A DNA stretch of 64,000 bases from an uncultured Armatimonadota bacterium (GTDB lineage: Bacteria > Armatimonadota > Armatimonadia > Armatimonadales > Armatimonadaceae). The stretch covers positions 62,001-126,000 of the forward strand of contig CAIVZM010000023.1 in NCBI GenBank assembly GCA_903910385.1, given 5' to 3'. The notes under the pieces are model-generated. The model saw nothing but the letters and a program-made list of their open reading frames with translations. It had not been told where the DNA came from and searched no databases. This document shows, one piece after another, positions 23,530 through 33,480 of the stretch. The position numbers and the translations under genes are program-made. Position 1 is the first letter of the stretch. Each line of letters opens with the position of its first letter.

Positions 23530-24480
23530 TTACGCCGACAGTTGCTTCACAAAGTTGATTTCGGCGGGCTGTTTGACGAAGCCCAGCCGTTCGTTGATAG
23601 CGAGCATCGCCCAATTATTGGATTCATTGCTGGTATGAATTTCCAGAGCGTCGTTCGATTGCGCGTAGTCGATTGCGCGAAGTTTCAGAGCGGTCGCGAT
23701 TCCCCGACCCCGATGCTCGCATAGGACGCCGGTCAATCCAGTATTCAGATGATTCCCGGCGTCCGAACCGAACAGATTGGAGAACCCGACAAATGCGCCG
23801 GTCGCCCGGTCTATAGCGACAAAGACGGCATCCGGGAGAAACTGGGGACCTTTTAAAAAGTAAAGCCATTTCTCATAGGGAATGGGTTGCGGTGGGTCCA
23901 GACTCGGAACATCGCTGACAACGGCTGTCGTCAGGTCATATAATCTCGCAAGAACATCGGGCTCGTCTTTTAGTTCTGTAAAGGTTTTGATTGTTATCCC
24001 TGAGTCCCTCACTTTTTTCGTCACTCCCTCGAAGGAGGAGGCATCGAAGCGAGTAACGTCCAGATGCGATTTCCAGTGACGCATCCTTTCCTCGAATCCC
24101 CGCTTTTGCAGGAATTTTACGCTTACCGCCCGGTTTTCCCTGGCGTTTGCGCGGAGCGATTGCGCTCCCAGAACGATCACTTCCCGTTCCAACTTTGCGT
24201 AAAGAACTGAACCTACCCCCTGACCTTGTTTCTCCGGGAGGACAAACGCGGTTAGGAAGAAGACCAGAGGGTCGAAGTTTACCAGTGATTGCCCGTATTC
24301 GCCGACGCCGATCGCCTCGCCGTCACTTTCGACGGTAAACCTTCCCGCCCGATGAATCGTCGGACGTTGCGCATCATTATGCCGCAACGATGCTTCCGAG
24401 ACCGGATTTTCCGGTAAAGCTGCATTTTGAATGGCTGCAAATGTGGCGTAGTCCGTATCGGTGAAGGGGCGGATATTCAT
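23530..24480 (-). CDS. Double-GNAT acetyltransferase, paralogue 3
   Basis: A 316-residue protein with two tandem GNAT domains. The N-terminal domain carries the acetyl-CoA loop EKQGQGVGSVLYAKLE, and the C-terminal domain has HRGRGIATALKLRAIDYAQS followed by TSNESNNWAMLAINERLGF. It is the last of three adjacent paralogues, each starting with an (I/L)R.F.D.DY segment and ending (G)F.KQP..I.F.K. Four nucleotides separate it from the next copy and 21 from the C45 gene. The acceptor substrate is unknown. Confidence 0.9.
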   Translation of the reverse strand: MNIRPFTDTDYATFAAIQNAALPENPVSEASLRHNDAQRPTIHRAGRFTVESDGEAIGVGEYGQSLVNFDPLVFFLTAFVLPEKQGQGVGSVLYAKLEREVIVLGAQSLRANARENRAVSVKFLQKRGFEERMRHWKSHLDVTRFDASSFEGVTKKVRDSGITIKTFTELKDEPDVLARLYDLTTAVVSDVPSLDPPQPIPYEKWLYFLKGPQFLPDAVFVAIDRATGAFVGFSNLFGSDAGNHLNTGLTGVLCEHRGRGIATALKLRAIDYAQSNDALEIHTSNESNNWAMLAINERLGFVKQPAEINFVKQLSA

Positions 24481-24484
24481 GACG

Positions 24485-25480
24485 TTATTTTTTCGCTTCC
24501 CCTGTCGGGTCTTCCTTTATAGTCTTTCGCAGGGAAATCCATACCGGTTGTTTTTGATAGCCAAGCGCTTCATTGATAGAAAGCATAGGGCGGTTCGTCG
24601 TTGCGTTATCGGTGCGAATCACCGGGCTGCCAACCGATTTGGCATACGCGATGACACGGAGTTTTAGCGCCATTGCGATTCCCATACGTCGGTACTTCGG
24701 ATGGACTCCGGTAAACCCGGTATCCAGATGGTCGTCCGATTCCCGTTTCCAGAGCGCAGACAGACCGGCGTATTCTCCGTCCGCTTCATTGACAGCTATT
24801 AGAAAAGCGTCTTCCAGTAAACTCGGGTTCTCCATTACCATCCTATGATAGTTTTCAAAGGAAAATGGCGTCATCGGTTCCGGAGTTGGCACGTCCAGCG
24901 AGGCTGTGTTATCCATCTCCCATAACTTCCGGGCGAACCCCGGGTCTTCCGCTTTCAACTGGCGGTACGTCTTGATGACAATGCCATGGGTTAGAGGTTT
25001 GTCGCGCAACTCGGTGAACGGCGCAGGATCGAAAGCGTTTACATCCAGACGCGATTCCCACGTACGGAAGTCTTCGATAAATCCACGATCCTGAACGAAC
25101 CGGGCGGAACGTGTCCAGTCTTCGCGAATCTCCGTCCGAACAGAGATAGGATCAAGTGGGGTCATCGCTTCCAGCAAATGGTCATAAAGAACTTTGCCGA
25201 ACCCTTCGCCCTGTCGCTCCGGCAACACGCCGACATGGATATGGAATTTCTGAGGATGGTACGCCCACATCATCTGCGAATACGATGCCGACCCGATCGT
25301 TTCGCCATCCGCTATGCCGATCCATTTGCACTTCTTGATCTTGGCGTCTATGCGGGAATCCCAATCCTTGATTTCCTCCGGAGTTGCCTGATTATCAGGA
25401 TTGATTTTGTTTCGTAACTGGCTCAGTATTTCATAATCTGCATCGCTTCCGTCAAACAGGCGGATATCCAATTTATTCAT
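24485..25480 (-). CDS. Double-GNAT acetyltransferase, paralogue 2
   Basis: A protein of 331 residues from the ATG at 25480, which is preceded by a strong GAGGAG site; an upstream in-frame ATG at 25507 lacks one. The two GNAT domains have loops PERQGEGFGKVLYDHL (N-terminal) and YRRMGIAMALKLRVIAYAKS (C-terminal), with the final TDNATTNRPMLSINEALGY helix of the fold. It is the middle member of the tandem triplet and is clearly homologous to both neighbours along its whole length. Confidence 0.9.
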   Translation of the reverse strand: MNKLDIRLFDGSDADYEILSQLRNKINPDNQATPEEIKDWDSRIDAKIKKCKWIGIADGETIGSASYSQMMWAYHPQKFHIHVGVLPERQGEGFGKVLYDHLLEAMTPLDPISVRTEIREDWTRSARFVQDRGFIEDFRTWESRLDVNAFDPAPFTELRDKPLTHGIVIKTYRQLKAEDPGFARKLWEMDNTASLDVPTPEPMTPFSFENYHRMVMENPSLLEDAFLIAVNEADGEYAGLSALWKRESDDHLDTGFTGVHPKYRRMGIAMALKLRVIAYAKSVGSPVIRTDNATTNRPMLSINEALGYQKQPVWISLRKTIKEDPTGEAKK

Positions 25481-25542
25481 AATTCTCCTCATTCCATTGA
25501 TGTTCATTTGATCGTCAGGCGGAACCGTCGAGATACCGACGT

Positions 25543-26547
25543 TTATTCTGCAAGCGTTTTCACGAACCCGATCCAGGCGGGTTGTTTGACAAAGCCCAGA
25601 GCTTCGTTAATCAACAGCATGGCGCGATTGGTCTGGTCATTGAAGGTTTTGATTTCGGGAGCGCCGACGGATTGCGCATAGGCGACGCCGCGCAATTTCA
25701 TCGCCAGCGCAATTCCTTTTCGGCGGTATTCACGACGTACTCCCGTGCCTCCCTGCATCAGTTTGTTGTCCGCTTGATTTTTCCAGAGGGCGCTTTCCCC
25801 AACCCAGTAATCGCCGTCGAGGGCGATTTGGATTGCTTCTGGCGCGAAATTTGGATTGTTGAGGGTGGAAAGAAGGAAGTTTTCGTAAGAAAACTGGGTC
25901 AAAGTATCCGGCGCTGGCATATCCTGAACAATGGCCCACTCGATATCGTAGTAACGCTCTTTCCAGTCCGGCGTAGATATCATTAACTCCGATAGGGGCT
26001 TGATCGTTATACCCGCATCCGCAACGCGCTTTTCCGCCTCGGCGAAGGGAGCGAAATCGAAGGCAGGAACCGCAAGACGCGATTCCCAATCTCGAAATTC
26101 TTCCGTGAAGCCACGTTTGGTCAGGAAACGAAGACCTTCCGGTTTGCATTCTTGGGCATGGGCTCGTAACTGGATCGGATTATATTCTTTCAGGGCGGAA
26201 ATCACCGTTTCATGAAGAGCGGAACCGACGCCTCTGCCACGATGGCTTTCGAGAACATCCGCATTCACCGAAAACTTTTGCGGATGCCACATATCCGATT
26301 GTTGACCGTATCCGCCATAGCCGACGATCTCTCCGGTAGGGGTATCTTCCGCCAGAAAACGCGCCCAGCGGATTTTAGGATCGCGCGTGGAATCGCGGAA
26401 CTTCCATTCTTCTACCGTCGTGGCGAAATCTGGCTGGACAGCATTATGAACCGCCACAACCGAAGGGTAATCGTCCGTGGTAAAGGGGCGAATTTTAAAG
26501 GGGAATGCAGTCAATTCTTTTTCTCCTGTCGAAAAGCCTAATGTCAT
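25543..26547 (-). CDS. Double-GNAT acetyltransferase, paralogue 1
   Basis: A protein of about 334 residues with two GNAT domains: LESHRGRGVGSALHETV in the N-terminal half and YRRKGIALAMKLRGVAYAQS in the C-terminal half, ending with NEALGFVKQPAWIGFVK like its neighbours. It is first in the tandem array of three. I start it at the ATG at 26547, one codon after a GTG. It lies 85 nt downstream of the six-gene membrane operon on the same strand and could be read through from it. Confidence 0.9.
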   Translation of the reverse strand: MTLGFSTGEKELTAFPFKIRPFTTDDYPSVVAVHNAVQPDFATTVEEWKFRDSTRDPKIRWARFLAEDTPTGEIVGYGGYGQQSDMWHPQKFSVNADVLESHRGRGVGSALHETVISALKEYNPIQLRAHAQECKPEGLRFLTKRGFTEEFRDWESRLAVPAFDFAPFAEAEKRVADAGITIKPLSELMISTPDWKERYYDIEWAIVQDMPAPDTLTQFSYENFLLSTLNNPNFAPEAIQIALDGDYWVGESALWKNQADNKLMQGGTGVRREYRRKGIALAMKLRGVAYAQSVGAPEIKTFNDQTNRAMLLINEALGFVKQPAWIGFVKTLAE

Positions 26548-26632
26548 CACGAGCGCCTCTGCCGTATCGCAGGAGAAGGGTTGAATGTTAAATGATTTCT
26601 CTAACTTTGAGTAGGATCGTCGGTTACGACGG

Positions 26633-27334
26633 TCACCCTTTCATTCCCAGTACAGTCACCTGAAACCAGTCGTGTATCAGGAAGAACATACGACCAATTA
26701 ACAGTGACATACGCGCCATGATCGTCGAACCAAAAATAGCGCCGAAGGCGAACATCAGAGTGTAACGCCCGAACCGTGATGTCATTCGAATTGCAGGATG
26801 ACGCTGTTCAAAAGAAAAGAAGAAGTAGACCATGACCGAAATGACAATGGCGAGAAACAGCAGGTTGTTTAAGATTGCTGATGTTCCGGTAAGCCAGTAT
26901 GCGCCGGGCATGGAAGCTTCCGGAGGATTCATCAGCGGGATATTGACCGCCGATTTGACCAGCGGAAAGTAGGTGGCGGCGAACGCCTGAAAGGTGCGAC
27001 CTGCCGCCGCGCCAAAGAAAAAGCCGAAGATCAGTCGGCTCATCCAGGCATGGCGCGGGAAGAACACCATATAAAAGAGAAGCCCGGCTGGCAACGCCAG
27101 CGCCCACCACCACTGACCATCATTGGTCATCGGTTCCCACCATTGCGGTTTCAGGATTGTTGTCCAGGTCTGTGAAATCGTATAACCTGTCGCTAAACCG
27201 AGAAAAAGATGTTCCAGAAAACGATAGACCTTATTTTCCTTATAAAGAATCGAATAGATGCCCAGAGTGCAAAGCGCAGCGCACCAGATGTAGATCACAC
27301 GGACAGTGGCGTCATTGCTGAGAAAATCGAACAT
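26633..27334 (-). CDS. Polytopic membrane protein, membrane operon gene 6
   Basis: A 233-residue protein with about six membrane helices and Trp-rich loops. I start it at the ATG at 27334 (MFDFLSN), 5 nt after the preceding stop; a longer frame upstream would overlap that gene by almost 300 nt and reads as low-quality basic sequence. No family recognised. It is the last gene of a six-gene operon of membrane proteins (30744 to 26633) behind a consensus promoter. Confidence 0.75.
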   Translation of the reverse strand: MFDFLSNDATVRVIYIWCAALCTLGIYSILYKENKVYRFLEHLFLGLATGYTISQTWTTILKPQWWEPMTNDGQWWWALALPAGLLFYMVFFPRHAWMSRLIFGFFFGAAAGRTFQAFAATYFPLVKSAVNIPLMNPPEASMPGAYWLTGTSAILNNLLFLAIVISVMVYFFFSFEQRHPAIRMTSRFGRYTLMFAFGAIFGSTIMARMSLLIGRMFFLIHDWFQVTVLGMKG

Positions 27335-27339
27335 CGCTC

Positions 27340-28221
27340 TTACGCCCTCCCTTGTTGACGTCGTAAACGTCGTTCGGCGAACATTCCGAGATTTCCGAGC
27401 AAGATCAGGAGAATAATCAGCAGGTGCGAGAGGGAAAGCGATGCGCCGCCGCGATGTCCGAAACCATCCACTCCCAGAAGCGTCTCGTACTCGGATGCGC
27501 CGCGCAGACCGAGCATCATTCCCTGCAGTTGTCCTGACTTCAGCAACGGATATTTTTCCGGCCCCATGACGGCGGTGGGGCAATAAACGGTAGGAATGGG
27601 CTTTTCTCCCGCGCGCTGAAAGAACTGGAGCCACGGGGGCAATGTTTCGCTCGGAGTCACTTCTACAATCAGGTTGATATCGTTTACCGTTTTCACCTGC
27701 GCCATGATGGGCAGGGAAGTGAGGGCGGCGCCTGCGGAATCTTTCTCAAATGCGCCCGGAAGGTCATCGACAGCGGCTTTGAGGCGAACTTCGATGGCAT
27801 CCGGGGGACAAAAACCCAGATCGACATAGTCTGAGCCGTACACATACTTGTATTCCTCTGCCAGCTTGTCCGCCACGGCCCTTCCCAGTTCGCGTCCCTG
27901 TGGAGTGGCGAAGGCGAATACGGCGAATTTTAGCTTGAGCCGCATCAAGTGACGGACGATGGCTTCGTTCTGGGTTTGATTTTCCGCCAGAGTCCCGCCG
28001 CTGTAGTTAGTGCAGACGATCGCCAGTTTTTTACTTTCGACAGGGTCTTTGGCGATACTCTCGATTGTATTGTACAGAGACTGCGTCTCTGGCATGACCA
28101 CAGGGCGCGGTTGAGGAACGTCCACCGCTATCGGAACGGCAATGCAGAGCGCAAGCAAAAGATACAGGATACGGCGGTCGATTCGCTGGGCGCGAACAAT
28201 CAATCGGAGGAAATTATCCAT
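27340..28221 (-). CDS. Membrane-anchored extracytoplasmic protein, membrane operon gene 5
   Basis: A 293-residue protein with one membrane helix near the N-terminus (about 18-35) and one near the C-terminus (about 265-283), enclosing a globular domain of about 225 residues. The domain alternates strands and helices (for example LAIVCTNYSGGTLAEN and KFAVFAFATPQGRE), which resembles a Rossmann-like or periplasmic-binding-type fold, but I cannot assign a family. It could be the sensing or ligand-binding part of a complex formed with the polytopic proteins encoded on either side. Confidence 0.75.
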   Translation of the reverse strand: MDNFLRLIVRAQRIDRRILYLLLALCIAVPIAVDVPQPRPVVMPETQSLYNTIESIAKDPVESKKLAIVCTNYSGGTLAENQTQNEAIVRHLMRLKLKFAVFAFATPQGRELGRAVADKLAEEYKYVYGSDYVDLGFCPPDAIEVRLKAAVDDLPGAFEKDSAGAALTSLPIMAQVKTVNDINLIVEVTPSETLPPWLQFFQRAGEKPIPTVYCPTAVMGPEKYPLLKSGQLQGMMLGLRGASEYETLLGVDGFGHRGGASLSLSHLLIILLILLGNLGMFAERRLRRQQGRA

Positions 28222-28270
28222 TAAAATGCACCGTTCTCCGGGTCTGAATGCCTCATCTCAGAATGTACCC

Positions 28271-29080
28271 TCACAGTTCCTCATCAAAGAACGCGCCGCG
28301 TTCCAGAGAAAGCCATAGCCGCAAGGCGGTCGCCAGTGTGCCGACGCCGATCCCCAGAGAGATCGCCAGTTGCGCTGGCGAGTTGACGCGAGTCAAAATC
28401 CAGTTGGAAAGATTCTCCACGCGAAAATTCGACGAAAAGTTTTCATTTGGAATCCAGGCGGTCAGAAGTTGCCCGAGGGTCACCTGCCCGATCATGATAA
28501 TGACGGCGGACATCAGAAGTATCCCTGCTTCCACCGTGCGGATTCGGAACGCCCGATACGCGGCGGAAACAATATAAAAAGCGACAATCGAAAACATGGT
28601 TGCATTCAGAGGATTGAAGCCCCCGTCATACATGATCCGGTAAAATCCTGCGATCTGCGGCGATTTATCGTACTCTTTCCAGATCGCGGGAATCGCCATT
28701 GCCAGAATAGCTCCCAGCAGGACAGCGGAAAAGCCCCAGTTTTCCCGACGTTTGGCTACTGCTCTCCCATGAATACTGACCATAGAGTACAGGCCAAGAC
28801 CAAGCGCGAATGCGCCTAAAATCGTCGTGACCGAGGAAACGGGCTTGATGTAGGCGGTGAGAAAGTTCTTTCCTGCCATGGGACCGGCGGTATCGACCGG
28901 CCAGAAAAACTCCAACGCGAAAAACAGTCCGCCCAGAAAAGTGATTCCGGCGATTAACGTCTTGCGCAGGCTTTTTGGCGTCAACGAGAGGGCGTAGAGG
29001 ATACCAAGCCCGACCACGAACGCGCCGATGATATACGCCCACAGTTCCGCGCCCTGTTTGGGTACAAAGAAACCGCCCAT
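28271..29080 (-). CDS. Polytopic membrane protein, membrane operon gene 4
   Basis: A 269-residue protein with seven or so membrane helices. The ATG at 29080 has a strong AGGAGG site and lies 1 nt after the preceding stop; an in-frame extension upstream would overlap gene 3. Loops contain paired charged residues (KRRENWGF, WKEYDKSP). No family recognised. It lies between gene 3 and the membrane-anchored extracytoplasmic protein and is clearly co-translated with gene 3. Confidence 0.78.
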   Translation of the reverse strand: MGGFFVPKQGAELWAYIIGAFVVGLGILYALSLTPKSLRKTLIAGITFLGGLFFALEFFWPVDTAGPMAGKNFLTAYIKPVSSVTTILGAFALGLGLYSMVSIHGRAVAKRRENWGFSAVLLGAILAMAIPAIWKEYDKSPQIAGFYRIMYDGGFNPLNATMFSIVAFYIVSAAYRAFRIRTVEAGILLMSAVIIMIGQVTLGQLLTAWIPNENFSSNFRVENLSNWILTRVNSPAQLAISLGIGVGTLATALRLWLSLERGAFFDEEL

Positions 29081-29081
29081 C

Positions 29082-29894
29082 TTACTTTCCTCCTGTTGCG
29101 GCGCGGAAGTAAGCGGCGAAGGTTTCCAGGTCTTTATCGCCAAAGATGTTGGCGATAAAAGGACTGCCAAAGGTCACCAACACAACTCCCAGAATAATCA
29201 TTCCGAGAAGTAGCATCTTACCGATATCCTGCCCGATCAACGAACCTAACAGCGTCGGTTGCCGGGTGATATAGGCGGTGGCAGCATAATACTCATCCCC
29301 GATGAGGACATAATCGCAGGCGGCGATAAAGAAGGGCACCTGAGTTGTCGATGGCGTCCCCGCTATCTGGATCGCGCCCACCTGATTGGCGTTCTCCGCG
29401 ATAATGAGCGCTTCGGCATAGAAGGTGCCAAAAAGGAAGGTCGCTGCCGGACGCTCTCGCTGAATAATTCCGGCGACCCCTGCCGCATAAGCGAATTGCT
29501 CGCCAGAAAGAAAGGGCAGATCTTGCTCATTGAACACATCCGGGCGACCCCCGGCGGTATAGGCGGCGCGCAGGGCTTCTTCGGCAATGGGAACCTGTGC
29601 TGCGTTTCGCAAGGGCAGAACGATACGGTGGGCAAATCTGGCGGCGGTTGTCGCAACGCTGGAGATAATCGCCAGCGCCTGGAGCGTGATGACATCGACA
29701 TCGCCGAGTCCGATGGAACCCAGAATGGGGCGTCCCATCTCGACCGCTCGGCCTACCGCTTCCTCAATGGCGTTCAAGCCGGGTATACGGCGAAGATAGA
29801 GTTTCTTTCCGCGCCGCGCTGAAAGAATCGCATAGAGAATAATGCCGGAAAGGACAAGCAAAATGATCCGGGCTGGCCAGGTGGCATGTTTCAC
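29082..29894 (-). CDS. Membrane protein (DUF6754-like), membrane operon gene 3
   Basis: A 270-residue protein with membrane helices at both ends (about 8-25 and 225-245) and a long central region rich in Ala, Gly and Ile. It has conspicuous motifs (SIGLGDVDVITLQALAI, AATFLFGTFYAEALII, ACDYVLIGDEYYAATAYI) that recall a family I believe is catalogued as DUF6754, found in several bacterial and archaeal lineages without known function. The overlap with gene 2 (4 nt) and the 1-nt gap to gene 4 make it part of a tightly coupled set. Confidence 0.75.
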   Translation of the reverse strand: MKHATWPARIILLVLSGIILYAILSARRGKKLYLRRIPGLNAIEEAVGRAVEMGRPILGSIGLGDVDVITLQALAIISSVATTAARFAHRIVLPLRNAAQVPIAEEALRAAYTAGGRPDVFNEQDLPFLSGEQFAYAAGVAGIIQRERPAATFLFGTFYAEALIIAENANQVGAIQIAGTPSTTQVPFFIAACDYVLIGDEYYAATAYITRQPTLLGSLIGQDIGKMLLLGMIILGVVLVTFGSPFIANIFGDKDLETFAAYFRAATGGK

Positions 29895-30292
29895 TGCGTA
29901 GCGTCTCCTTTATCAGAATGGGAGGATTCGTGACGCATTGAGGCGCAAAGCGAGGGCGGATCGCTGTCGTTCCTCTTGACTTCCTGCCTGTCAGTATCAC
30001 TGTCGGCATCGAAGGAAAGGTTTTGCAGTAAAGCGTCCAGCGCCACCGGATCTCCCAGCAGGCGCACCGCTTTTTCCATTCGTTCCAGACCGAGGAGGGG
30101 AGCAAGCATCGGCGTCAACGCCACTACCGACTGCGACAGGATGAACCCCAGCGGGCGATGCGTTTCCAGAAGAAAATAAACCGGAGTTTCCATACCGCGT
30201 TTCCGAATCGCCACCGATAACTCGGAGACCAGTTCCGTGCGTTCCTGTGGTGTTAGCGGTGTATCGAAACGGGCAAGCGAAGCGGGAATCAT
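29891..30292 (-). CDS. Soluble protein, membrane operon gene 2
   Basis: A 133-residue protein from the ATG at 30292, which overlaps the stop of gene 1 (ATGA). It has an Arg/Glu-rich N-terminal half, a moderately hydrophobic segment (LGFILSQSVVALTPMLAPLLG) and a polar, Asp/Ser-rich tail. No family recognised. A much longer open frame upstream overlaps gene 1 in another frame and is not supported. It may be a cytoplasmic adaptor for the membrane proteins of the operon. Confidence 0.65.
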   Translation of the reverse strand: MIPASLARFDTPLTPQERTELVSELSVAIRKRGMETPVYFLLETHRPLGFILSQSVVALTPMLAPLLGLERMEKAVRLLGDPVALDALLQNLSFDADSDTDRQEVKRNDSDPPSLCASMRHESSHSDKGDATQ

Positions 30293-30744
30293 TCCGCGTC
30301 TCCTTTCCAGCATCTCTTGACGATCATTCGTAATTCGTCCGGCGACTCCTTGCCATATAAAAGGCGAACGCCCCGGAAATGATCCAGACGCGAGGGTCGG
30401 GGAAGCGGCGAAAGGAAGATGCCATCTTGCCCGTAGCTTGCGCGTTTCACTTCCTTCCATTCCAGAAAAAACCGGGTCAGAATTCCATCCGCATGCGCTC
30501 CCTGCGTTGTGAGGCGGTAGGTGATGGGAAAAAGATAGTCGGACAGACTCGCCGTCAGGATCAGCAGGGACGAGACCAGCAACAGGGGATGCGGTAACGA
30601 GAGACGCCAGAACAGCGTCGTTACCACGTAACCGAGAACGACTAAAACCAAGCGTTCGGGATGGTCTCGTAAACGATGGACGCGCCACAATAAGAGCGTC
30701 TCGTCGGACGCTGTGGCGGCGGGATGGCGAACCGCAAGCGACAT
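30289..30744 (-). CDS. Membrane protein with PH-like tail, membrane operon gene 1
   Basis: A 151-residue protein with two closely spaced membrane helices (about residues 30-68) followed by a C-terminal domain in which YRLTTQGAHADGILTRFFLEWKEVKRASYGQDGIFLSP reads like the bacterial PH domains seen in membrane proteins (strand, turn, I.W.(E/D)I..). It is the first gene of the six-gene operon, with a Shine-Dalgarno-like GAGGAA ahead of the ATG and a perfect promoter about 20 nt upstream. Confidence 0.75.
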   Translation of the reverse strand: MSLAVRHPAATASDETLLLWRVHRLRDHPERLVLVVLGYVVTTLFWRLSLPHPLLLVSSLLILTASLSDYLFPITYRLTTQGAHADGILTRFFLEWKEVKRASYGQDGIFLSPLPRPSRLDHFRGVRLLYGKESPDELRMIVKRCWKGDAE

Positions 30745-30767
30745 GACAGGGTTCCTCAGGATGCGGG

Positions 30768-30797
30768 ATTATAGACCGATATATACGTTAGTGTCAA
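30768..30797 (-). promoter_or_regulatory. Consensus sigma-70 promoter of the membrane operon
   Basis: On the minus strand TTGACA (30797-30792) and TATAAT (30773-30768) are both perfect, with an 18-bp spacer. The predicted start site is about 17 nt before the ATG at 30744, so the whole six-gene operon appears to be strongly expressed from here. Confidence 0.85.
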
Positions 30798-30954
30798 GAA
30801 AGCGGACATACAGGCGATATTTCTGTCGGTTCGAGGGAATTCCGGGAGCGTGGGGAAAGCGTGTCGCAGCGTCCTGGTAGGGTTCTTCCCTCCGCTCTCG
30901 TCATCGGAGGCGTTCTTGTGTTATAATGCGGATAACCGTGATTAGAGGTAGCGC

Positions 30955-31509
30955 ATGACTTCTGGCCCAGTAGCCGCATTTCTGGCTCGACCAGGCGCAC
31001 GACAATTTCTGAAATTCTGCCTTGTTGGCGCTTCCTCGTTCGTGATTGATTTTGGTCTGCTGAATCTGTTGCATTACAGAGGGGGTCTTTCCGTTGCGCT
31101 TGCCGCGACGATTTCCTTTTTCTGCGCTATCTGTAATGGCTTCTACTGGAATCGCCGCTGGACTTTCAAAGGTCAGGCGGGTGATATACACAAGCAATTT
31201 TCGCTGTTTGTCGGCACAAATCTGGTCGGTTGGATACTGAATCTGACGATCATGACCCTTGTTCTGATGATTGGCGGATCTCTCGGGTGGATGAAGATCA
31301 ATCGTAGCGCGTGGGACATCGCACGGATGATCGCTTTCCGCGAAGGCAATGATCATATCAATCCGCTGGCTTTGAACGGAGCGAAAATGATCGCTACCGC
31401 CATTGTGCTGGTATGGAATTTCACGGCGGCGCGTTTATGGACATTCCGAGCGCAGCCCGAGGAACCGCGTTCTACGTCGGTTGCCCCGGTCGAATCCCGC
31501 GCCCGTTGA
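30955..31509 (+). CDS. GtrA-like membrane protein
   Basis: A 184-residue four-helix GtrA-family protein, thought to flip or pass polyprenyl-linked sugars across the inner membrane for surface-glycan modification. LKFCLVGASSFVIDFGLLNLL opens the fold, NGFYWNRRWTF marks the conserved loop between helices 2 and 3, and WNFTAARLWTFR closes it. An insertion of about 25 charged residues between helices 3 and 4 (SLGWMKINRSAWDIARMIAFR) makes it longer than usual. TATAAT at 30922 may be its -10 box. It is divergent from the membrane operon. Confidence 0.9.
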   Translation: MTSGPVAAFLARPGARQFLKFCLVGASSFVIDFGLLNLLHYRGGLSVALAATISFFCAICNGFYWNRRWTFKGQAGDIHKQFSLFVGTNLVGWILNLTIMTLVLMIGGSLGWMKINRSAWDIARMIAFREGNDHINPLALNGAKMIATAIVLVWNFTAARLWTFRAQPEEPRSTSVAPVESRAR

Positions 31510-31560
31510 GTGTCCCCTTTCCGCGTTCCTGAACTGGAACGCACAACAGAATAGGATTCT

Positions 31561-33480
31561 ATGGCGAAAGAGATTATCGTCAACGCCGATGTGCGGGAAT
31601 CGCGCATCGCTGTCCGTGAGGACAATCAGTTAGTGGAACTGCATATCGAACGCGAAGAACGCGTCGTTGGCAGTATTTATAAAGCGCGAGTGGAAAGCGT
31701 CCATCAAGGCATGGATGCGTCCTTCGTGGATATCGGACTGGAACGGAACGCTTTCCTGTACGCCGGGGACATTCTCGGCAATGACGAAAGCGAAGACCGC
31801 AATGGCGCCGCCAACGGCGCTTCTGGCGGAGGATTGGATCGCCGTGGACGGCGCACACGTCCCCATCAGACCATCAATCAACTGGTCAAGAAGAATCAGG
31901 AAATTCTGGTTCAGGTGGTCAAAGGGCCTCGTGGCAGCAAGGGCGCCCGTGTCTCTACCCGCATCTCTCTGCCGGGGCGCTATCTGGTATTCATGCCGGA
32001 TGAAGCGTCTCTGGGCGTTTCCCGTAAAATCGAAGACCCCAAAGAGCGCGACCGCCTGAAGCGGATTGTGGAAAACATTCGCAAGCCGGGATACGGTCTG
32101 ATCGTGCGTACCGAAGCGGAAGAAAAATCCGAGCGTGAACTGCGTCAGGACCTGGAGTTTCTGGAGCGCACCTGGTCTGATATCGAGCGCAAGGCGGCGG
32201 TCACTCCGGCTCCGAACCTTGTCTATGCTGACCTGACATTGTTATTCCGGATCCTCAGGGATGCCTTCGGACAGGATGTCGATAAGCTGATTCTGGATTC
32301 GGCGGAAGATTACCGACGCGCCCATGAACTTCTGGACTTCTTCGGTCCGAATCTCAAAGATCGAGTCGATCTCTATGATGGTGAAAAGCCGATTTTTGAG
32401 TTTTACAACATCGAACAGGATATGCAACGCCTGTTGGAGCGGCGCGTATGGCTGAAGTCCGGGGGGTATCTTGTGATCGACCAGGCGGAAGCTCTGGTCG
32501 CAATCGATGTCAACTCCGGACGCTTTACTGGTTCCGGAACCGGGTTGAACGACACTATCCTTCAGACCAACCTCGAAGCGGTAGCGGAAATCGGGCGGCA
32601 ACTGCGTCTGCGCGACCTCGGCGGAATTCTGGTTCTTGACCTGATCGATATGAGTAACGTCAACGACCGGAAACGAGTCGAGACCGCTCTGGAATCAGCC
32701 CTCAAAAAAGACAAGTCCCGTTGTAAGTACAGCCATATCTCTCCGCTGGGCCTGGTCGAAATGACCCGGAAACGAACCGGAGAGACGGTCAACGAGCAGA
32801 TGAATGAACCGTGCCCGTACTGCAACGGGAACGGTAAACTGGCTTCGCCGGAATCGGTGGCGATTCAAATCGCCCGTGACCTGCGTCGTCTGACGCGAGT
32901 GCAAACTTCGGCGGAAGCGTTCCATGTTCGTTGTCATCCGCTGGTGGCGACCTTCCTCGTCGGAGAGGATGGAACCGAACTGGAGCAATTGGAGCATTCC
33001 CTTCAACGCGGCGTATTTGTCCGTGTCGCGCATGAATTACATCAGGAAAAATACGAGATCCAACCCGGTAAAATGGACGAACTGGATCGACGCTTCAATC
33101 TCTACCGACGCGGACAGATTGTCGAAGTCAAGGTTTTGCGTGGCGGGTTGTTGCAAGCTCCCGCCGCATCCGCCTGTACGGAAAGTGGTCTTCTGGTCGA
33201 ACTGCCGGAAGGCGCTCGACTTGCCGGACAATCCACCCGTGTCCGTCTGGTTTCTGTCGGACGTTCCTCCGCCAATGGCGAAGCGATGAGCAAAGGGCCG
33301 GATAACGCCCGCCCGCAAAACGCGCCGCCGTCCGGCGGGGTTTCGCGCCCGGTTCGTCATGAGCCGCGTGAGCCACGGGAGCGTCCCACGGCGCTGGTCG
33401 TCGTCAAGGAAGCGGAAGAGGCTAACGGGGCAAATAAACGCCGACGGCGGAAGAAGAATCGGGATACGCAGTCGGCATAA
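31561..33480 (+). CDS. rng: Ribonuclease E/G family endoribonuclease
   Basis: A 639-residue Rne/Rng family enzyme, the main RNA-processing and decay endonuclease. It has an S1 domain (KARVESVHQGMDASFVDIG, about 40-120), an RNase-H-like region, and the catalytic DNase-I-like part with VAIDVNSGRF (about 311-321) and LGGILVLDLIDM. The Zn-link is CPYCNGNG (about 418-425), required for dimerisation. The domain order fits RNase G rather than RNase E; a long basic tail (KRRRRKKN) replaces the scaffold of RNase E. An insertion of Gly and Arg residues interrupts the S1 domain (about 80-100). Symbol rng is the best fit. Confidence 0.93.
   Translation: MAKEIIVNADVRESRIAVREDNQLVELHIEREERVVGSIYKARVESVHQGMDASFVDIGLERNAFLYAGDILGNDESEDRNGAANGASGGGLDRRGRRTRPHQTINQLVKKNQEILVQVVKGPRGSKGARVSTRISLPGRYLVFMPDEASLGVSRKIEDPKERDRLKRIVENIRKPGYGLIVRTEAEEKSERELRQDLEFLERTWSDIERKAAVTPAPNLVYADLTLLFRILRDAFGQDVDKLILDSAEDYRRAHELLDFFGPNLKDRVDLYDGEKPIFEFYNIEQDMQRLLERRVWLKSGGYLVIDQAEALVAIDVNSGRFTGSGTGLNDTILQTNLEAVAEIGRQLRLRDLGGILVLDLIDMSNVNDRKRVETALESALKKDKSRCKYSHISPLGLVEMTRKRTGETVNEQMNEPCPYCNGNGKLASPESVAIQIARDLRRLTRVQTSAEAFHVRCHPLVATFLVGEDGTELEQLEHSLQRGVFVRVAHELHQEKYEIQPGKMDELDRRFNLYRRGQIVEVKVLRGGLLQAPAASACTESGLLVELPEGARLAGQSTRVRLVSVGRSSANGEAMSKGPDNARPQNAPPSGGVSRPVRHEPREPRERPTALVVVKEAEEANGANKRRRRKKNRDTQSA

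Follow-up and report, generated by a model that had tools for sequence, protein, structure and literature searches.

We describe an eight-component system for which the databases and the open literature searched offer neither a function nor a close relative. Six of its genes (g1 to g6) form an operon on the minus strand of a 64-kb window, i.e., the whole stretch of DNA analyzed here (in G000:C23), from a 4.47 Mb Armatimonadota genome. Two further components are encoded elsewhere in this genome: a MutL-like protein of the ASKHA family and a protein with a barrel-sandwich-like N-terminus (BSH). Our favored reading, to which we give a probability of about 0.4, is that these proteins form a nucleotide-driven machine of the inner membrane that exports, inserts, or assembles a component of the cell envelope. 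A further proposal, which we hold tentatively, at slightly less than even odds, is that they represent a new class of envelope machine with eight components, carried by nearly all Armatimonadota and sampled Zixibacteria and recurring in many phyla of the FCB and PVC types. Gene order, co-occurrence across genomes, a fusion of MutL with BSH, and two Rossmann-like domains are the computed results behind the favored reading.

The taxonomic distribution of the system can be followed through g3. This gene had been called DUF6754-like in the original prediction and encodes a true, full-length member of the family DUF6754 (PF20539, 312 bits against a curated cut-off of 27, E=3e-93), a label that carries no function. 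DUF6754 is found in 252 of the 291 genomes of Armatimonadota and in all 11 sampled Zixibacteria. The 14 well-known control genomes all lack it. A scan of contigs returned at least 577 relatives, and the top 80 among them include sequences from Armatimonadota, Poribacteria, Fermentibacteria/Aegiribacteria, Zixibacteria, Stahlbacteria/WOR-3, and Planctomycetota, as well as Coatesbacteria, Cloacimonadota, Latescibacteria, BRC1, UBP7, and Hatepunaea. The eight-component system recurs, with its gene order kept, in about a dozen little-studied phyla.

Conservation of gene order in other genomes had been chosen beforehand as one of the points on which the original prediction would stand or fall, and the order is indeed conserved across many phyla. 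For 133 g3 genes, the available downstream DNA sufficed for this comparison; in 121 of them, g4, g5, and g6 follow directly on the same strand, the median gaps being 9, 0, and -1 nt. These 133 cassettes were drawn from Armatimonadota, Planctomycetota, Zixibacteria, Poribacteria, Cloacimonadota, Fermentibacteria, Latescibacteria, WOR-3, and others, and the exceptions are chiefly g3 genes duplicated in tandem, or cassettes with an insertion or a gene-calling problem inside them. Upstream of g3, the pair g1-g2 is present in 69 loci, and mutL accompanies the pair in a further 18. In some genomes of Zixibacteria, FCB, and Planctomycetota, entire g3-g6 cassettes are doubled or tripled in tandem (L118, L129, L134, L138, L155, L233, and L234), as expected if the products of the quartet act together. 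These tandem copies also suggest the existence of paralogous machines with differing substrates or partners.

The six genes are a genuine set with the appearance of co-transcription, as had been proposed, but they do not make up the complete system. The operon is only a part of it because the MutL-like and BSH proteins, encoded at G000:C39:23812-25239 and G000:C65:3973-5097, respectively, and unlinked to the operon, belong to it as well. The former is an ASKHA protein of about 600 amino acids matching PF13941 (399 bits, E=2.7e-119 in the source genome; E=4e-126 for the MutL of locus L078). The latter has 375 amino acids, and its alignment shows a mean column identity of 61%. In other genomes, mutL and bsh separate g2 from g3 or adjoin the cassette, as observed in the Armatimonadota families f36-f45, Fermentibacteria, BRC1, Zixibacteria, and Planctomycetota. 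Complete planctomycete genomes have a single seven-gene operon, g2-mutL-bsh-g3-g4-g5-g6 (L223, L224, L226, and L235), and the arrangement g1-g2-mutL-bsh followed by g3 to g6 is found in Armatimonadota and Fermentibacteria. The gene g2 immediately precedes mutL-bsh in L117, L129, L208, L223, L226, and L232.

The co-occurrence of these genes follows the same trend. BSH is present in 265 of the 291 Armatimonadota genomes: 246 have both DUF6754 and BSH, 6 only DUF6754, 19 only BSH, and 20 neither (p ~3e-15; cells counted by hand, several of the one-sided cases being fragmentary genomes). An independent sample of 147 Planctomycetota genomes at least 90% complete has 34 with both, 4 with only DUF6754, 1 with only BSH, and 108 with neither (Fisher p ~1e-27). 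Since related genomes are not independent, the p-values are indicative only in both phyla. Among genomes of other phyla that encode DUF6754, 26 of 28 also encode BSH, and MutL was found in 12 of 14 test genomes with DUF6754 vs 1 of 16 without it. Nine near-complete Armatimonadota genomes (G001-G003, G045, G047, G048, G050, G132, and G133) lack DUF6754, BSH, and MutL alike. Finally, in Fermentibacteria and Cloacimonadota, paralogous MutL and BSH are fused in proteins of about 950-1090 amino acids (L207-L211), which argues for a direct interaction between the two. We regard these fusions as a second, diverged use of the pair. Their neighbors include sugar-type ABC permeases (L210), a radical SAM gene (L207), and a glycosyltransferase (L208).

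How might the eight parts, i.e., g1, g2, MutL, BSH, and the membrane quartet g3-g4-g5-g6, work together? In the reading that we favor, the quartet would form one complex in the cytoplasmic membrane, with g4 and g6 as its membrane core, the Rossmann-like domain of g3 facing inward to the cytoplasm, and the domain of g5 facing outward. The proteins g2, MutL, and BSH would constitute a cytosolic module docking on the quartet, with BSH as an adaptor, and g1 may be a small accessory protein anchored in the membrane. MutL, as a member of the ASKHA family, is assumed to act as a nucleotide-dependent engine or switch, and binding or hydrolysis of the nucleotide would cause the conformational change that drives the machine. 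The outcome would be the export, insertion, or assembly of an envelope component.

The six proteins have the following features. The first gene, g1 (30289-30744, minus strand, as are all the others), encodes 151 amino acids with a predicted two-helix membrane hairpin and a conserved C-terminal domain, putatively PH-like, with the pattern WxxVxR...GVxLSPL..SRLxxFRGVxL. It is followed by g2 (29891-30292), whose 133-residue product is predicted to be soluble and mainly helical, and by g3 (29082-29894; 270 amino acids), with a transmembrane helix, a Rossmann-like domain predicted to be cytoplasmic, and a second transmembrane helix. The polytopic membrane proteins are encoded by g4 (28271-29080; 269 amino acids), in which G51, P61, and R176 are invariant, and by g6 (26633-27334; 233 amino acids), in which R208 is invariant and the C-terminal motif GAxFGxTVMARxSLLIGR is conserved. 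Between them lies g5 (27340-28221; 293 amino acids), with a transmembrane helix, a Rossmann-like domain predicted to be extracytoplasmic, and another transmembrane helix. The AlphaFold2 models of g3 (predicted local distance difference test, pLDDT, 89.9; predicted template modeling score, pTM, 0.83) and g5 (pLDDT 96.2; pTM 0.91) are of good quality, share one layout, an alpha/beta domain between two transmembrane helices, and agree with the topologies given above, including the double anchoring named in the original prediction. The side of the membrane is predicted from the positive-inside rule: the motif RRGKK behind the first helix of g3 would place its domain in the cytoplasm, and basic residues before the first and after the second helix of g5 would place its domain outside. 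Several g3 homologs from other lineages carry a recognizable FN3 domain on an N-terminal extension, which is consistent with an extracytoplasmic N-terminus. The program hhalign detected no kinship between g3 and g5, between g4 and g6, or between BSH and either of the Rossmann-like proteins.

Paired Rossmann-like domains, one on either side of the membrane and each flanked by two transmembrane helices, could also be expected if the complex were a trans-membrane sensor or regulator. In that case, the outer domain of g5, together with the FN3 domain of g3 where present, would bind a ligand or a wall component, and the inner domain of g3 would relay this state to MutL-BSH, acting as a switch on some target. 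Foldseek matches point in this direction, with LOG/SLOG-type and SIS/RCK-type proteins belonging to families whose ligands are nucleotides or sugars, and so does a PhoB-type response regulator whose gene, in six Armatimonadota loci (L175, L176, L177, L178, L185, and L187), immediately follows bsh or is found near it. However, all these matches are non-significant, the best ones for g5 being of the LOG and MoCo-carrier types (E 0.008-0.07, target-normalized template modeling score, TM-score, of at most 0.52) and those for g3 of the SIS, RCK, and dehydrogenase types. The resemblance of g5 to LOG is only a lead. Furthermore, the components have no output domain, and a sensor would usually need neither two extra polytopic proteins nor an ASKHA protein of its own. 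We consider a sensor rather unlikely.

Searches for relatives of the individual components gave little else. Pfam has no match for g1, g2, g5, and g6 and none above the cut-off for g4, while none of the six proteins matched NCBIfam above its cut-offs. Profiles of g3, g4, g5, and g6 retrieved nothing among the sequences of the PDB at E ≤ 5; g1 and BSH gave matches at chance level only and MutL gave none. Foldseek searches of the PDB with the models of g3 and g5 had no match at E ≤ 0.001. The open-access literature searched has nothing naming DUF6754 and nothing on 'glutamate mutase L' in this context. Hence, the failure of the original prediction to match the operon to any known secretion, transport, or respiratory system is borne out by Pfam, NCBIfam, PADLOC, the sequences of the PDB, Foldseek, and the open literature. 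The only folds recognized among the components are generic: ASKHA, FN3, barrel sandwich, and Rossmann. A role in anti-phage defense was rejected, given that PADLOC had 0 matches for the eight proteins and that the system is near-universal in the phylum.

The N-terminal part of BSH is weakly similar to RnfC, NqrA, and barrel-sandwich proteins of the biotin type. It has one match over the cut-off of Biotin_lipoyl and one exactly at it, and remains below the cut-offs of RnfC_N (19.2 vs 25.6 bits) and NQRA_N (17.5 vs 25 bits). This similarity and the two polytopic subunits would suit a transporter of solutes or ions, or an energy-converting pump, in which g4 and g6 provide the conduit and BSH is a cytosolic subunit like those of Rnf/Nqr or of biotin-dependent pumps. 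Yet, beyond this N-terminus, BSH and its membrane partners are unlike the subunits of Rnf or Nqr: RnfC, NqrA, NqrB, and RnfD profiles have no match above the cut-off among the components, including those of the membrane subunits, the PDB has no relative, and Pfam calls no redox-cofactor domain in any component. Among the conserved charged residues within or close to the hydrophobic cores of g4 and g6, all are arginines and none is acidic, a pattern that speaks against a simple proton or sodium channel. We regard a transporter or pump as unlikely.

The family of MutL brings in another explanation, that MutL-BSH is a chaperone or reactivase of a radical or cobalamin enzyme, with g3-g6 as a membrane enzyme or anchor. 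The MutL partner shares the ASKHA family PF13941 with GlmL/MutL (TIGR01319), the accessory of glutamate and ornithine mutases, its NCBIfam relatives being GlmL and the ornithine Or-4 protein, both accessories of B12 mutases, and one of the fused paralogs mentioned above lies beside a radical SAM gene (L207). It differs from GlmL in its length (about 600 vs about 455 amino acids) and in its association with a membrane quartet. The MutL of L078 scores under the equivalog and subfamily cut-offs of GlmL in NCBIfam (226 vs 475 and 175 vs 204 bits), and the glutamate mutase E subunit (PF06368) was found in 0 of the 28 genomes tested. On these two grounds this is not a mutase accessory system, and a role for MutL as accessory of glutamate mutase was rejected for the lack of the E subunit in these genomes. 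The eight components also have no B12-binding or radical SAM member, and the broader idea of a reactivase is improbable.

A similar general plan is provided by the PilM-PilNO assembly of type IV pili and by GspL in type II secretion, where a cytosolic actin-like protein sits on an inner-membrane complex with extracytoplasmic domains. The likeness to the machine that we favor stops at this plan: the membrane proteins here are polytopic and Rossmann-like, not bitopic, and neither Pfam (g1-g6, MutL, and BSH) nor NCBIfam (g1-g6) gave a match to PilM, PilN, PilO, GspL, or GspM. With the same coverage, no ATPase or permease domains of the ABC type were found.

Some genomic neighbors steer weakly toward an envelope function. 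In L227 and L228, the gene immediately upstream of bsh encodes an FtsY-like GTPase of the SRP54 type; in L208, FtsY is nearby. TatC directly precedes bsh in L175 and L178, and ExbB/ExbD adjoin it in L155. The operon of L223 is preceded by signal peptidase II-TPR-ExbB-ExbD-ExbD-TatD, and this is largely so in L224 and L226. Considered in general, flanking genes were rejected as a clue to function, as they mostly differ from clade to clade.

Several observations weigh against the envelope machine. Neighbors of the envelope type occur in few loci only, and those found elsewhere are unrelated, e.g., shikimate genes, AccA, transketolase, and RecO. Three Planctomycetota loci (L225, L227, and L228) have bsh-g3 without adjacent g4-g6, which means that the quartet is not a strict requirement, locally at least. 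The near-complete genome G077 has DUF6754, and neither BSH nor MutL was found in it. Nucleotide binding by this subfamily of MutL is assumed from its ASKHA family, and the activity of every component is a prediction from sequence.

The layout of the operon is compact. Based on the coordinates of the open reading frames, the spacings between successive genes are -4, -4, +1, +49, and +5 nt, confirming the overlapping or nearly abutting genes of the original prediction, with 49 nt as the largest gap. The fully consensus sigma-70 promoter TTGACA-18-TATAAT is equally real (30768..30797, minus strand, 12/12 positions): it lies 23 nt 5' of the ATG of g1, whose ribosome site is GAGGAA. It is also rare: the window holds no other such site, 100 dinucleotide shuffles yielded 0, and the entire 4.47 Mb genome has 18 including this one, compared with 0 for the reversed control pattern. 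Its position upstream of g1 is kept in family-mates, with 12/12 matches in L034 and L035 and 10/12 in L036, L032, and L033. The claim that the complex must be made in quantity does not follow. The remaining 17 perfect promoters, whose genes were named by eye from translated sequences, precede ordinary housekeeping genes (e.g., HrcA, RecG, MurJ, ParB, and an aminotransferase), and a consensus-perfect promoter is thus a poor guide to abundance. Upstream of g1, and divergent from it, lie genes for a membrane protein of the GtrA/DPMS type and for a ribonuclease E/G (window 30898-33480, plus strand), with a promoter-like site of 10/12 matches at 30898-30927. Downstream of g6 and on the same strand are three tandem genes resembling double-GNAT acetyltransferases (316-340 amino acids; window 23530-26550, minus strand). 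The family-mate L035 has three genes of similar size after g6, but in inverted orientation, which makes it probable that the GNAT genes are outside the unit.

These results provide DUF6754 with a genomic context and give a set of partners to an orphan branch of MutL/GlmL that is likely annotated at present as a mutase accessory factor. The system is carried by phyla with cultured members and by complete planctomycete genomes, which makes it experimentally tractable. Considering that gene order is kept over very large evolutionary distances among components that remain unassigned, the system points to a basic process of the envelope that is absent from model organisms, in keeping with the lack of DUF6754 in all the well-known control genomes.

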